From: a virus
DNA length: 57,405 bases
Virus record (IMG/VR): IMGVR_UViG_3300044609_000868
Location: 1-57,405 of that record
Strand: one strand, 5' to 3'
In this document: positions 32,034 through 51,132 of the stretch, piece by piece
Position numbering within the stretch: position 1 is the first letter of the stretch
Layout of the letters: each line of letters starts with the position of its first letter
Program-made: the position numbers and the translations under genes
Notes under the pieces: generated by a model
Databases searched by the model: none
What the model saw: only the letters and a program-made list of their open reading frames with translations
What the model was told of the DNA's origin: nothing

Positions 32034-32323
32034 GATTCGCCTCTCGCGACGGCAGTGTCACGTACGACGAGGGCCTCGAGACTGCCTTTGAGCTGTTTCG
32101 CGATGGTCGCATTCAGGATGCGGCCATGATGTTCCTCGTCTACGCCGACCCCGACGCGATTGGCATCGTCGGCGAGAGTGAATACAACGCTCTCGCCGCT
32201 CACTTCAAAGAAATGATGGCGTTTGTGAAGCTCTACGAAATGATCTGCGACGAGCTTGCGCAGCCACTGCTTAGCGAAGACGGGAAGCCGGCGTACAAGG
32301 TTGGTCCTGCTGCCGAGGGGTAG
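32030..32323 (+). CDS. Hypothetical protein coupled to thyX
   Basis: 97 aa, helical (YDEGLETAFELFRDGRIQDA and FKEMMAFVKLYEMICDEL). ATGA overlap with thyX. Its 3' end runs convergently over the last 53 bases of the integrase gene. No function recognised. Confidence 0.65.
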   Translation: MRFASRDGSVTYDEGLETAFELFRDGRIQDAAMMFLVYADPDAIGIVGESEYNALAAHFKEMMAFVKLYEMICDELAQPLLSEDGKPAYKVGPAAEG

Positions 32324-33419
32324 CGACAGCTTCGCCGATGCGCGCCACGGCAGCCTTAGCGGCGTCGTCGATCAGGAAGGCGTAGCGCGCCGTCGTCTGC
32401 GGTGATGTGTGCCCCAGGAGCTGACCGATCTGGCTGAGCGACACGCCCACCGACAGTCCGATCGAGGCGTAGGAGCGGCGCAGATCATGCACCAGCAGGC
32501 CCTGAATGCCGGCCAGCTGCAGCAGCTCCTGCCAGAGCTTCTGGTAGCCCACCAAATGCCCGCCGTTGTCGCCTGCGATAATCCATTCAGTGTTTGAGTT
32601 GCGTCTCAGCTCTCTCAAGATGCGAATCGCTGCAGGAGGAAGATGCACTACGCGATCTTTGCCGGTGCTGTTGCCGGTCTTGTGAGCATCAATCGGGATC
32701 ACCAGCAGACCTGCTTCCTCGTTGATCCAGTCCCATCGGCCGCGGCATATCTCACCTACTCGGCAGCCAGTCAGCAACAGCAGCCGTATCAACTGGGCAA
32801 ATCGCCAGCGCAGTGGCGTGGTGGCTATCGCGTCCAATGCGGCCTCCAGCCGCTGCCGCTCTTCGCCTGACAGGTAACGCTGCCGCTTGCGCTCGCCGTT
32901 GCCCGGCACGTTGGCGCAGGGGTTGGTGGGGCATAGGCCCCAGAGGATGGCGAGGTTGAATGCCTTGCGCAGAACGGCCAGCGTCCGGTTGGCCTGGGTG
33001 CGGGCGATGCCGTTGATCAGTTGCATCACCTGCGCGCTGGTGACGGCCTGGAGCTTGGTGGTGCCGAGCTTTGGCAGCAGGTGCGTCCGCCAGATGCTTT
33101 CGTAGCCGGCCCGGGTGGTTGCTCGCAGCTTGACGTAGTGGGCCGCTTGCAGTCGCTGGTACAGATCGGCCACGGTTGGCCCGCTGCGCAGCTCCTGTCG
33201 CTTGCTGGTGGGTGCCTCGCCACGAGCGACGGCTGCAAGCAGCTTGTAGGCCTCCTCTCGGGCCAGCGTGCGGCTGATGATGCCCACCCGGCCGATCTTG
33301 TGATGCTGCTGCTTGCCGCTGGGCTCGCGGTAGCGCAGGTACCAAGTTTCAACACCGCTGGGCAGCCTCAGGATGCCAAGGCCGGTAACTTTTGAGTCTG
33401 CAATCCATTCGCGCGCCAT
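32271..33419 (-). CDS. int: Tyrosine integrase
   Basis: 382 aa from the ATG at 33419, preceded by GGAG. The open frame continues upstream through the tRNA fragment (its translation contains the familiar CPRTDSNRRPTDYKS artefact), so the longer reading is rejected. Catalytic residues are all present: Arg220 in TGCRVGEI, His311 and Arg314 in HDLRRSYAS, His337 in LGHTS and Tyr346 in TTARYAF. The N-terminal DUF4102-like arm-binding part and the SAM-like core-binding part are visible. It catalyses integration into the tRNA-Thr gene at attP, 120 bp upstream of its start. Confidence 0.95.
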   Translation of the reverse strand: MAREWIADSKVTGLGILRLPSGVETWYLRYREPSGKQQHHKIGRVGIISRTLAREEAYKLLAAVARGEAPTSKRQELRSGPTVADLYQRLQAAHYVKLRATTRAGYESIWRTHLLPKLGTTKLQAVTSAQVMQLINGIARTQANRTLAVLRKAFNLAILWGLCPTNPCANVPGNGERKRQRYLSGEERQRLEAALDAIATTPLRWRFAQLIRLLLLTGCRVGEICRGRWDWINEEAGLLVIPIDAHKTGNSTGKDRVVHLPPAAIRILRELRRNSNTEWIIAGDNGGHLVGYQKLWQELLQLAGIQGLLVHDLRRSYASIGLSVGVSLSQIGQLLGHTSPQTTARYAFLIDDAAKAAVARIGEAVATPRQQDQPCTPASRLR

Positions 33420-33460
33420 TCGCGCAGATCTCCGTGATTTCGCGCGACTCTGCGCGAACG
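33405..33460. promoter_or_regulatory. Arm-type integrase sites, left group (WTTCGCGC repeats)
   Basis: CCATTCGCGC occurs at 33405 and again 11 bp later at 33416. GATTTCGCGC lies at 33436 and an inverted copy (CGTTCGCGCA on the minus strand) at 33451-33460. The first two overlap the integrase start codon. Spacing of one helical turn and the position beside attP fit arm-type binding sites of a lambda-like integrase, which could also let integrase repress its own gene. Confidence 0.7.
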
Positions 33461-33540
33461 AGCGGTAAAGCGCAAGAGCGGATAGATGTAATGAATCAAG
33501 ACTTTGGGTAAGTTGCGGTAAAAAGCGTGAGATACTAAAA

Positions 33541-33590
33541 GTTGATTTGTAATCAGTAGGTCGGCGGTTCGAGTCCGTCCGGGGGCACCA
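33541..33590 (+). tRNA. attP core: 3' part of a tRNA-Thr(UGU) gene (partial)
   Basis: Fifty bases match tRNA positions 27-76: anticodon arm with TTTGTAA loop (anticodon TGT), variable loop AGGTC, T arm GGCGG-TTCGAGT-CCGTC, acceptor strand CGGGGGC, discriminator A and CCA. The D arm and 5' acceptor strand are missing, so this is not a working tRNA. It is the identity segment that rebuilds the host tRNA gene after integration. The core probably starts near 33544. Confidence 0.92.
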
Positions 33591-33654
33591 TTTAACCCAA
33601 TAAAAACAACGCACTGCAGGCAGGCTGCCTGTAGCCAGCAACACCCAGTGGTGC

Positions 33655-33675
33655 CGTTCGCGCACTATTCGCGCA
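33655..33675. promoter_or_regulatory. Arm-type integrase sites, right group
   Basis: CGTTCGCGCA at 33655 and TATTCGCGCA at 33666, again 11 bp apart, on the other side of attP. Same consensus as the left group. A 6-bp inverted repeat (CAGGCA/TGCCTG, 33617-33631) lies between core and these sites. Confidence 0.7.
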
Positions 33676-37480: not shown

Positions 37481-37808
37481 CGAGCGCCTCCAGTGCGCGG
37501 CGGATGACTGCCATGGCCGTCTGATCATCCGTGCCAGCCTCAACGGCAGCCCAAGCCTGCAAGGCTCGCTCCTTCAAGCTCGGCGGCTTGGGGCGGCGGA
37601 GGCGGCGTAGTTCAGCGCCCCACTCTCTGCCGTGCCCGATCTCACGCTCAACCCACTCACAGCACGCCTCCAGCTCTTGATCAGCACCCCAGCGGGCAAA
37701 GCGCGTGGCGATGAACTGCTCATAAGTCATTTCCGCCGGGGTGGATGGATTGCTGCGCAGAAAAGCCTGCACTAGCTGCGGCGGCGGAGTGATCAGGTGG
37801 TCAGTCAC
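37473..37808 (-). CDS. RPKPxSLKE-family small protein, copy 2
   Basis: 111 aa. YEQFIATRFARWGADQELEA, then CCEWVEREIG, then RRPKPPSLKERALQAW and AVIRRALEALDD. Paralogue of the 36611 product (see shared motifs there). ATGA overlap with the alpha-CTD-like gene upstream. Function unknown. Confidence 0.6.
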   Translation of the reverse strand: MTDHLITPPPQLVQAFLRSNPSTPAEMTYEQFIATRFARWGADQELEACCEWVEREIGHGREWGAELRRLRRPKPPSLKERALQAWAAVEAGTDDQTAMAVIRRALEALDD

Positions 37809-38194
37809 GCCTCCACCTCCGACGGCATCAACATCTGCCGGATCCGGGCAGCGGTAAACGGCCCGCGGGAGATCCGATTCCAGATCACCTTCATGGCCAC
37901 CACGGCCTCCTGGTCAGCCATGCAGCTGCCGCATTCGTCCAACGCCCTGCTGACGGCCTCATGCGTCTCGCGGTAGAGCACCGGGTCGGTCTGCATCAGT
38001 GCATCGCGCCAGGTGGCAACCTCGCTCAGCGCCTGCATGCCGAAATTCTTCAGCTGCATCAGCTCTGCCGAGCTGGCCATCATGACCTGCTCAGCAGTGA
38101 ACAGGCCACCACGAAGCAGTGCGTTCTGCGTGCGGACTGACATGTACTTGGCAGTCTCCGGCACCAGCCGGAAGTCGTCTTCAGTTGGGTGCAT
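37805..38194 (-). CDS. Protein with RNA polymerase alpha-CTD-like helix-hairpin-helix
   Basis: 129 aa. Residues about 17-58 (MSVRTQNALLRGGLFTAEQV then SSAELMQLKNFGMQALSEV) closely follow the helix-hairpin-helix pattern of the RNA polymerase alpha C-terminal domain, which reads LSVRxxNxLxRxxIxTxxDL...LLxIxNFGxKSxxEV. In host RNAP this domain binds UP elements and activators. A free phage copy might compete for or redirect these contacts. The C-terminal half (ECGSCMADQEAVVAMKVIWN) is unknown. Confidence 0.65.
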   Translation of the reverse strand: MHPTEDDFRLVPETAKYMSVRTQNALLRGGLFTAEQVMMASSAELMQLKNFGMQALSEVATWRDALMQTDPVLYRETHEAVSRALDECGSCMADQEAVVAMKVIWNRISRGPFTAARIRQMLMPSEVEA

Positions 38195-38755: not shown

Positions 38756-39238
38756 TCACACTTCGTAAAAACTGCAGTCAGCCGCGAAGCTGGTGCCCTC
38801 GTCGAGCGGGTCCGGGAAGCCCAGTTCGCAGCCGACACCGCCCCAGTGCTGGCATTCGGTGCAATCGCGCCACTGCGGCCGCCGCTTCAAGCTCGGGAAC
38901 ACCTTCGTCCAGGTCTTGCCAGCTCGGATCTGCTGAATCGCCTGGCGCGACACACCGAGCTCGGCGGCCAGAGCAACGTCCGAGGTTTGCCGATCGGTCA
39001 GCGCGCGGCGGACGTGCGCCAGATCAAGCTTCTTTCGTCTTGGCTTGCCAGGCCCGCGTCGCCGCCGGCGCTTCTTTCTGTCAGGCCCGAACACAGTCCA
39101 GCGCTCACCGCAGTCACTGCACTCCCACCGGCGACGGATCAAGCCATCGGCGCGGGTACGTGTTTCACGGACAAAACGGTTGTTGTGCTCACAGACAGGC
39201 GTGTCTAGCGTTGATGAATCATCGCTGTTGAACTCCAT
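38756..39238 (-). CDS. DNA-binding protein with Zn-finger, HTH and C..C.HW motif
   Basis: 160 aa. Zn-ribbon-like Cys/His pairs near the start (VCEH...WECSDCGERW), then a strongly basic linker (RKKRRRRRGPGKPRRKK), a helix-turn-helix (DVALAAELGVSRQAIQQIRAG) and a C-terminal CTECQHWGGVGCELGFP...FAADCSFYEV module like that of the 34621 product. A transcription or DNA-maintenance role is likely. Its start codon shares the palindrome CATG (39236-39239) with a gene on the other strand. Confidence 0.65.
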   Translation of the reverse strand: MEFNSDDSSTLDTPVCEHNNRFVRETRTRADGLIRRRWECSDCGERWTVFGPDRKKRRRRRGPGKPRRKKLDLAHVRRALTDRQTSDVALAAELGVSRQAIQQIRAGKTWTKVFPSLKRRPQWRDCTECQHWGGVGCELGFPDPLDEGTSFAADCSFYEV

Positions 39239-48263: not shown

Positions 48264-50883
48264 TTTTGACGCCGCACGCCAGTTCCTAGCTGCGCTCGGC
48301 AAACCCAAGGGCGCTATCCGCTTGCGTGGCTTCTACGCGAAGACCGATCCACGCAAGGCCGACGACAAAGGTCGAAAAGGCGCCCCCACTAAATCCCTAA
48401 TGGAAGAATGGGTCGCGGATCGTCGCGGCGTCTATGTCGTGATCAACAACGGCGGCGACAACGACGCCGACATCACTGAGTGCATTGCGTTTTTCATCGA
48501 GTGGGACGACAGACCCAAGGACTGGCAGGTCACCGCTTGGCGTGAATACGGCCTCCCCGAACCAAGTCTTCAGGTCGACACCGGCGGTAAGTCGATCCAT
48601 AACTATTGGATCCTTTCTGAGCCCGTGGACGCGGTGCGCTGGAGAGCTGTTCAAACGCGGCTGATTGATTACACCAAAAGCGACGCACAGCTGAAAAATC
48701 CTTCGCGGGTCATGCGCTTGCCCGGCATGCCAAACGCCGCGACCGGGGTGCCCGTAGCAATCATCCATCAAACAGAGGAGCGCTACACCGTTGACCAGAT
48801 TGAGGCTTGCATCCCTGAACCAGATCCGGTCTTGGCGGCATCGCCAGACCCCCGCATCGAACGAGCCCGGTCCTTCACCGATTACGAAGCCCAAGGGCTC
48901 GACGAGATCCAGAAGGCCCTCTCCTGCATCCCGCCTCGGGTGCCAGGTAGTGGCACCTACCCGATGTACCGCAACATCCTCTGGGGTCTGATGAAGGCCT
49001 GCGAGGAGGCCGGCAGCTCAGAGCAAACCGCCATCTTGATGATGGCCGGCCACTCCCCGCAGTGGGGCGGTATCGATCAGGTGGCTCGATCAGGTGGCGC
49101 AGAAGTCACTGCTGGCACCTTCTGGTACTGGGCGAAGGAACACGGCTACCGGGCGCCACGGCGGATCATGCCTGGGCCGCCAGAGCTGCGCAGCTTGCCT
49201 ACCGCATCCGTCAGGCAAGTCGAGCCTGAGCCAGTCGTGGAGCCGGATGTCGAGGACGACACTCCTGCGGTTTCCCTACCATTTCGCCCCCTTGGCTTCG
49301 ACCACGGCATCTACTACTACCTGCCCGCAGCTGCCTGTCAGGTCGTCGCCCTCACCGCTGCCCAGCACAACAAGAGCCACTTTCTGACACTTGCTCCCCT
49401 CGAATGGTGGGCAAACGGCTTCGGTAATGAGCGCGGTCGCATCGACTGGGATTCAGCCGTCAACGCCATCCTCGGCTCCTGCATCTCGCAGGGCGTCTAC
49501 GACCCATCCCGGGTGCGTGGCCGCGGCGCCTGGGCTGATGCCTCCCGCGTCATCCTGCATCTCGGCAATCGCCTCGTGATCAACGGGCGCTCGCACCCGA
49601 TCACCAAGCTGCCTCGCGACTTCGACAGCTACTACTTCTACGAAAACGCCAAGGCGATTGACGGCCCCGGCGGCGAGATCCTCTCCGACGACCTTTGCGC
49701 CCGGGTGCGCCTGATCGCTGAGCGCTTCCGCTGGGAGACGCCCGCCTCCGCCAACTTGCTGCTCGGCTGGATCGTGCTGGCGCCGGTCTGCGGCTCCCTC
49801 GACTGGCGGCCGCATATCTGGGTCACCGGTGGTGCCGGCACGGGCAAGACCACCATCCTCAAATCCTTTATGAAGCCGCTCCTCGGAGGCATGTTCGAGG
49901 GCGCGACTGGCGGCACCACCGAGGCCGGCTTGCGCGGTCAGCTGCGCTCCGACGCCATCCCCGTCGTGTTCGACGAGCTGGAGCAGAACGAGCACAAGGA
50001 CAAGCAAACCGTTCAAAACATCCTCGCCCTTGCCCGCATCGCATCGTCCGAGGGCGGAAAAATTTACAAGGGCACAACATCTGGCGGGTCCAACTCCTTT
50101 GAAATCCGCTCAATGTTCTGCTGCTCGTCGATCAATGTTGCCCTGATTCAACGCGCTGACCTCGATCGTTTTTGCGTCCTAAGCCTGCGCAAGGATCACA
50201 TGGACAAGGACGACTGGAACGAATTTGAGCAGGAAATCTTGAGCGCCTGCACTGAAGAAAACGGCCGGCGTCTTGTCGCCCGCACGCTCCAGCAGATCCC
50301 GACGATTCGCAAGAACGCCAAGACCCTTGCAGCTGCTTTGTCTCGGCGCTTCGGGCAGCGTTTCGGTGATCAGTACGGCACGCTGCTGGCTGGCGCCTGG
50401 ACGCTAGAGCCCGGCGGGGGTGGCGAGCTGTCGCTTCAGCAGGCCATCGAGTGGATCAACATGATGGACTGGGAAAGCCGGGAGGTTGATGCCGCTGACG
50501 CCGATGAGGTCAAGTGCATCAACCACATCCTGCAGACCCTGATCCAGGTGGATGGTGGCAAGCGCATGTCGGTGCTGGAGCTTGTCCAGATGGCTCAGCG
50601 CGGCGTGATCTTCGCCATCCCCGGCCGTGACCACCCCTCAGACGAGATCGAGACGATCCTCGGCCGCTACGGCCTCAAAGTGACCGGTGGGCTGCTGGCG
50701 GTCGCCAACAACAGCACCAACCTGCAGGGCTTGCTCAAGGACACCCCATGGGCCGGCAATGCCTATCGGCAGGCTCTGAGGCGGCTCACCGGTGCCACGA
50801 CCAGTAACAACACGATGCGATTCAAGGGCAGCGGCGTTGCACGTGCAACGTTGGTCCCACTTGAGACGCTTGAGACTCTGTAA
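48241..50883 (+). CDS. Primase-helicase (replication initiator)
   Basis: 880 aa from ATG 48241. Residues 1-200 look like an archaeo-eukaryotic-type primase domain (AIRLRGFYAKTDPRK, VYVVINNGGDNDADI, FFIEWDDRPKD, QVDTGGKSIHNYWI). The middle is a linker of helices. From about residue 400 comes a D5/SF3-like NTPase with Walker A GGAGTGKTTIL near 530, PVVFDELEQNE as Walker B, and SSINVALIQRADLDRFCVLS. It probably unwinds and primes phage DNA and may bind the repeat array directly after its stop codon. Confidence 0.88.
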   Translation: MTSANNPDFDAARQFLAALGKPKGAIRLRGFYAKTDPRKADDKGRKGAPTKSLMEEWVADRRGVYVVINNGGDNDADITECIAFFIEWDDRPKDWQVTAWREYGLPEPSLQVDTGGKSIHNYWILSEPVDAVRWRAVQTRLIDYTKSDAQLKNPSRVMRLPGMPNAATGVPVAIIHQTEERYTVDQIEACIPEPDPVLAASPDPRIERARSFTDYEAQGLDEIQKALSCIPPRVPGSGTYPMYRNILWGLMKACEEAGSSEQTAILMMAGHSPQWGGIDQVARSGGAEVTAGTFWYWAKEHGYRAPRRIMPGPPELRSLPTASVRQVEPEPVVEPDVEDDTPAVSLPFRPLGFDHGIYYYLPAAACQVVALTAAQHNKSHFLTLAPLEWWANGFGNERGRIDWDSAVNAILGSCISQGVYDPSRVRGRGAWADASRVILHLGNRLVINGRSHPITKLPRDFDSYYFYENAKAIDGPGGEILSDDLCARVRLIAERFRWETPASANLLLGWIVLAPVCGSLDWRPHIWVTGGAGTGKTTILKSFMKPLLGGMFEGATGGTTEAGLRGQLRSDAIPVVFDELEQNEHKDKQTVQNILALARIASSEGGKIYKGTTSGGSNSFEIRSMFCCSSINVALIQRADLDRFCVLSLRKDHMDKDDWNEFEQEILSACTEENGRRLVARTLQQIPTIRKNAKTLAAALSRRFGQRFGDQYGTLLAGAWTLEPGGGGELSLQQAIEWINMMDWESREVDAADADEVKCINHILQTLIQVDGGKRMSVLELVQMAQRGVIFAIPGRDHPSDEIETILGRYGLKVTGGLLAVANNSTNLQGLLKDTPWAGNAYRQALRRLTGATTSNNTMRFKGSGVARATLVPLETLETL

Positions 50884-51132
50884 CGGTTTGGGGCTTCCTG
50901 AAACGGTGGGTGTTACAGCGAGATCCCTTGCGGCGCAACGGATGTAACGTTTGAAACGCTTGTAACGCTTTTTCCCGGGAAAGCCCCATAGAGATATATG
51001 GCCCCAGAGACCCCCTTACCCCCTACTACTACTATCTCTATTTATAGAAATAGTTGTTACAACGTTACAACCCAGTCCCTGCAAGGGGTTTGGCTGTAAC
51101 GGTGACCGTTACAAGACCGTTACAGCGTTACA
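50879..51132. repeat. Iteron-like TGTAACG/CGTTACA array; candidate replication origin
   Basis: Ten copies of TGTAACG or its complement (or TGTTACA) at 50879, 50911, 50943, 50961, 51055, 51063, 51095, 51107, 51118 and 51126, plus a degenerate TGAAACG at 50952. The 50943-50967 group is spaced 9 bp; 51055/51063 and 51118/51126 are spaced 8 bp; 51095-51113 is a perfect 19-bp palindrome. An AT-rich stretch (51022-51056) with an inverted CTATTT/AAATAG lies inside. Position after the primase-helicase supports an origin. Confidence 0.75.

Follow-up and report, generated by a model that had tools for sequence, protein, structure and literature searches.

The window analysed here, the whole 57,405-bp IMG/VR virus record IMGVR_UViG_3300044609_000868, comes from an uncultivated tailed phage. 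Pfam domain searches indicated that it encodes a lambda-type terminase (GpA), a portal, an HK97-type capsid with protease and a tape measure protein, and recombination and replication genes are also encoded. A complete ORF for a tyrosine integrase runs on the minus strand from an ATG at 33419-33417 to a stop at 32271, and its product carries three separate domains, an Arm-DNA-bind_3 (arm-binding), a SAM-like (core-binding) and a catalytic domain. Alignment of 18 sequences revealed that the catalytic R...K...HxxR...H...Y residues are invariant, and profile comparison matched the protein to the lambda Int chains 1z1b and 5j0n. The nearest named integrases are encoded on plasmids of Rhodobacterales and other alphaproteobacteria. 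The features of the locus are listed below, with offsets in bp from the near arm and conservation counted over 62 distinct attP segments.

32271..33419, minus strand: tyrosine integrase, 382 aa (Pfam PF13356, PF14659, PF00589; PHROG integrase)
33408..33414, plus strand: near-arm site 1, TTCGCGC, within int codons 2-4; near pair exact in 59 of 62 attPs
33419..33425, plus strand: near-arm site 2, TTCGCGC, in contact with the start codon of int; spaced 11 bp from site 1; near pair conserved
33439..33445, plus strand: extra direct TTCGCGC copy, found in this phage only (1 of 62)
33452..33458, minus strand: single inverted arm-type site (GCGCGAA on the plus strand), offset 44; exact in 54 of 62
33494..33506, plus strand: IHF-like site AATCAAGACTTTG, matching WATCAANNNNTTR at all 9 fixed letters; offset 86, shared across the family
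33506..33530, plus strand: three repeats phased at about 10 bp, GGGTAA at 33506, GCGGTA at 33515 and GCGTGA at 33525; family consensus there CGTGAAc...CgtGAg
33544..33590, plus strand: 3' half of tRNA-Thr(UGU) including a templated CCA; 94% identical to a Rhodobacterales plasmid tRNA
33546..33552, plus strand: predicted crossover region, the anticodon loop TTTGTAA with anticodon TGT at 33548-33550, as indicated by the fixed core offset and the short-core relatives
33657..33663, plus strand: far-arm site 1, TTCGCGC; far pair exact in 52 of 62
33668..33674, plus strand: far-arm site 2, TTCGCGC, 11 bp from far-arm site 1; far pair conserved

The six TTCGCGC copies of the locus fall within 271 bp, a number that did not exceed four in any of 200 dinucleotide shuffles, and the far pair lies 249 bp from the near pair. 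Two pairs spaced by exactly 11 bp were found in the window, where shuffles gave 0.005 on average and never more than 1. Over the entire window the motif is not enriched (20 copies, 21.5 expected), and two other 7-mers cluster equally densely elsewhere in it, so that clustering alone is no proof of an attP; the proof comes from comparison with relatives. The initial annotation had described the same helically spaced pairs of sites to either side of a tRNA core, with a binding consensus that was not recognised; with integrases of this type the arm consensus is commonly unfamiliar, and this is not surprising in itself. Its repeat coordinates began about 3 bp too early, flanking letters having been included, and the two single copies that it gave fared differently, the inverted one (33451, here 33452) being conserved and the direct one (33436, here 33439) private to this phage.

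The tRNA-Thr half is 47 bp long and extends from the anticodon stem to the CCA, with an intact T arm and the 3' strand of the acceptor, at 124 bp from the int start codon (33419). Since only half of the gene is present, ARAGORN found no complete tRNA in the window, as expected. Two further kinds of site had been missed in the first listing of the module. IHF-like sites, defined as matching 8 or 9 of the 9 fixed letters of the consensus, recur in the family on one strand at offsets 86 and 175 or 195-197 (79 observed; mean 6.7 and maximum 19 in mononucleotide shuffles), and the far-side site of the window scores under this threshold. In the family, the repeats phased at about 10 bp occupy the stretch from the near IHF-like site to the core, and are probably excisionase (RDF) sites. 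The Xis sites of lambda lie on that same side. No excisionase gene was recognised in the gene searches of the window.

Protein searches, DNA searches with the arm pair and profile searches of viral contigs yielded about 80 related IMG/VR contigs that carry the same arm-site layout and integrases 55-80% identical to that of the window. Both the far GCGCGAA pair and the near pair, each spaced by 11 bp, were identified in every full-module contig with the exception of L172, in which the near pair has diverged, and of L149 and L175, in which the module is cut by the contig end. The near pair lies over or just before the int start throughout. Among the attPs of the four commonest tRNA targets the offset of the anticodon loop of the core is 138 ± 1 in 57 of 57, being exactly 138 in 54 and 137 or 139 in the other three. 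The distance between near and far arms ranges across the family from 207 to 251 bp: it is 207-209 bp in the short-core phages described below, 215-229 bp where the tRNA has the opposite orientation and also in one group with long Lys cores (L168/L169), 239-240 bp in some of the fMet phages and 249-251 bp in most others. The common distances are approximately one helical turn apart, with 215 and 225 fitting less well. The arms are thus nearly invariant and the core offset is fixed while the tRNA target changes. Every contig that spans the full module holds an intact attP.

Partial modules were also observed. Six contigs (L053 at 7205, L073 at 5384, L107 at 473, L110 at 2156, L111 at 3556 and L121 at 482) keep the far arm pair and have lost the core and nearly all of int, the sequence resuming in most of them at the apparent last integrase codons, which suggests that the integration module has been lost more than once. 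In L060 (5832-6311), L061 (8276-8755) and L118 (3206-3668) the far arm pair is followed by an internal integrase fragment covering residues 184-295 only; read from their sequences, these are decayed modules. Two Ruegeria plasmids, L211 and L212, encode integrases about 38% identical to that of the window, directly preceded by the 3' half of a tRNA (Thr or fMet), and carry before the int start 7-bp repeats of their own, GCTTACC and GCTTCCA, 11 bp apart.

The site in the window is a real and complete attachment site for insertion into a bacterial tRNA gene, and we are highly confident that a temperate siphovirus-like phage has its attP at 33408-33674. The proposals that a complete attP with a tRNA-Thr(UGU) core lies here, that paired arm sites flank it and that the leftmost of them cover the integrase start (the sites at 33408 and 33419 against the ATG at 33419-33417) were all borne out by the layout kept in the family. 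Taken by itself the window attP is an ordinary lambda-like one; what makes it of interest is chiefly the family to which it belongs. Features in common with the lambda Int intasome (PDB 1z1b, 5j0n) are an N-terminal domain that binds the arms, pairs of arm sites flanking the core, IHF-like sites between arms and core and, on one side only, candidate Xis repeats. Unlike in lambda, the core is the anticodon arm and 3' half of a tRNA, the arm motif is TTCGCGC and the near arm covers the start of int, whereas the lambda attP is situated at the opposite end of int.

On this reading, the N-terminal arm domain of the integrase would bind the inverted site as well as the TTCGCGC pairs flanking the core, and the core-binding and catalytic domains would bind the anticodon-stem sequence. 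IHF or a related protein would probably bend the DNA at the WATCAANNNNTTR sites, so that the arms fold over the core in the manner of the lambda intasome. An exchange of strands in the anticodon loop would then join attP to a host tRNA-Thr(UGU) gene, and the full 3' half provided by the phage, CCA included, would restore the host tRNA at one junction. Integrase at the near arm probably also limits its own synthesis, a plausible reading because the leader and start codon of int lie under arm sites and because the KplE1 prophage integrase IntS offers a close precedent, with arm sites over the int promoter or leader at a tRNA-borne site (PMC2951348). The divergent tRNA and int layout found in the window is the one predicted to be autoregulated in that work; the regulation was measured for KplE1, whereas for the window it is inferred from site positions alone. 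A standard scan found no sigma-70 promoter for the window int (best upstream match 6 of 12), and sigma-70-like matches of 8 or 9 of 12 occur upstream of int in about half of the family.

Assignment of the cores from their anticodon loops indicated that the family targets at least six kinds of tRNA, namely Thr, Lys, Phe, initiator fMet, Arg and Gly. Core and tRNA vary together: Thr(UGU) was found in the window and L158, Lys(UUU), Phe(GAA) and initiator fMet(CAU) in others, and Arg(UCU), Gly(CCC) and Thr(UGU) among the cores in the opposite orientation. An integrase tree, built by a quick method and with long branches, required a minimum of seven changes for the target and five for the mode of tRNA handling. 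The window and L158 have acquired Thr separately on this tree, each standing beside Lys-targeting relatives.

Thirteen contigs have a short core, in which only 9-13 bp are common to attP and to the phage's own tRNA. A complete tRNA of the same isotype adjoins the far arm in 13 of 13 of these contigs and in 0 of 66 long-core contigs (Fisher P 4e-15, a value that ignores shared ancestry, the five mode changes on the tree being the safer guide). Twelve of these tRNAs are Lys-UUU and one is Met-CAU, the latter (L191) with initiator features (C1-A72, CGCGGGG...CCCCGCAACCA). The constant presence of a complete cognate tRNA is most easily explained if integration breaks the host gene, and the thirteen short-core relatives carry the sequence signature of tRNA-dependent lysogeny, as published for the actinobacteriophages Fionnbharth, Cain and Gaia (PMC10865867). 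As in those phages, a 9-13 bp core goes together with an entire phage-borne tRNA that shares its isotype, most often Lys-TTT here too, and short-core contigs stand beside long-core relatives with related integrases. They differ from the actinophage cases in that the tRNA adjoins the far arm, and the initiator tRNA-fMet of one relative is absent from the tRNA-dependent cases of Table 2 in PMC10865867. The window itself was considered as a tRNA-dependent phage and rejected, the 47-bp 3' half being present and a tRNA gene absent from the window; it would restore the tRNA, unlike the actinophage cases, and is of the usual tRNA-restoring type.

Integrases 95% identical are found in L142, which restores the tRNA, and L144, which replaces it. 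We therefore regard it as reasonably probable that a single module of arm sites and integrase has been swapped among at least six tRNA isotypes, the initiator tRNA-fMet included, with the distance from near arm to core held fixed, and has toggled repeatedly between restoring and replacing the host tRNA. If so, tRNA-dependent lysogeny occurs well outside the actinophages, how commonly being a question asked by the authors of PMC10865867, and may be gained or lost between phages with integrases as close as those of L142 and L144. The pattern would extend to phages that show here no sign of being actinophages and would add the initiator tRNA as a target. The family separates a constant arm recognition from a changing core recognition, and it contains natural before-and-after pairs of tRNA restoration and replacement, such as L142/L144.

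Complete tRNAs were detected by ARAGORN inside the attP itself, in the orientation opposite to the other cores, as tRNA-Gly(CCC) or tRNA-Arg(TCT) in L208 (int offset -206 to -134) and in L170 and L095 (-213 to -136). They may be pseudo-tRNAs or a third way to handle the target.

Among the other readings of the locus, the one that survives best is that the site works but the phage rarely integrates and is essentially lytic, so that the site would be no lysogeny module of the usual kind, as reported for T7-like cyanophages, which integrate at a tRNA-Leu gene and do not form stable lysogens (PMC8776855). Neither a lysogen nor an attL, attR or host attB sequence turned up, and a scan of genome_contigs, with one genome each of about 85,000 species, contained no prophage with a close integrase relative. 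The replacement tRNAs of the short-core relatives, on the other hand, would be needed only if the integrated state lasts long enough for the lost tRNA to matter, and we consider a rarely integrating phage improbable. The T7-like cyanophages P-SSP7 and S-TIP37 share with the window an aquatic phage integrase and a tRNA-borne attP (PMC8776855), and differ in that P-SSP7 carries the 5' part of tRNA-Leu downstream of int; for this reason P-SSP7 was unusable as a control for templated CCA.

The TTCGCGC repeats could instead be operators of a transcription regulator, either a repressor or the integrase acting as a regulator only, since the leader and start of int lie beneath the near pair and the inverted site, and the sigma-70-like match upstream of int occurs in about half of the family. 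An operator function would leave unexplained that the far pair, 207-251 bp off across the tRNA core, is also conserved, and that the arm spacing varies only with the tRNA part while the distance from near arm to core stays constant, and it is very unlikely. Still less credible is that the tRNA piece is a captured host gene or the remnant of an imprecisely excised prophage at a site no longer working. In its favour, the tRNA is incomplete, no lysogen was found and some relatives have kept nothing but the far arm, so that the module does decay. Against it, all elements of the site in the window are undamaged, the integrase frame is open with every catalytic residue in place, and the half from anticodon to CCA is complete and structurally sound.

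The host may be of the Synechococcus type or belong to the Alphaproteobacteria, and the evidence leans to the latter. Structural genes of the window are colinear with those of the Synechococcus siphophages S-CBS1, S-CBS3 and S-LBS1, many head and neck proteins being 40-67% identical and one other product up to 69.5%. The cyanobacterial host proposed in the initial annotation is not established, and several features of the tRNA fragments point to Alphaproteobacteria instead. The best bacterial match of the tRNA-Thr half was to Ruegeria (94%, none exact), and the fMet core of relatives is identical over 47/47 positions in 13 alphaproteobacterial plasmid records and over 46/46 in one more, both comparisons being one-sided because the plasmid collection, judging by the hits, is nearly devoid of cyanobacterial tRNA genes. 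IHF, the candidate bending protein, is mainly proteobacterial. CCA is encoded in the elongator cores of the family, a feature usual in Proteobacteria but rare in Synechococcus and Prochlorococcus (PMC5143459). A sigma factor is annotated in all three of S-CBS1, S-CBS3 and S-LBS1; no match to a cyanobacterial sigma factor was found in the window or related loci, and neither sigma-70 region 2 nor photosystem genes were found in 39 related records. Comparison of the tRNA-Thr core with phages gave general tRNA similarity only, and the viral contigs with an exact 32-base match (L034-L040) carry tRNA gene clusters and were likewise uninformative. The sequence GCGCGAATRSTGCGCGAAYGG is a searchable tag for integrated copies, and finding them would settle the host.

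Three further observations concern the window outside the attachment site. At and just past the end of the primase ORF, eight copies of CGTTACA/TGTAACG lie within 254 bp (50879-51132), out of nine in the whole window where two are expected; the cluster is iteron-like and could be a replication origin. On the minus strand, 37805-38194 encodes a small protein matching the RNA polymerase alpha C-terminal domain (Pfam E 5e-7), and 38756-39238 encodes a product with an NrdR-like zinc ribbon and a weak helix-turn-helix match, possibly a regulator.
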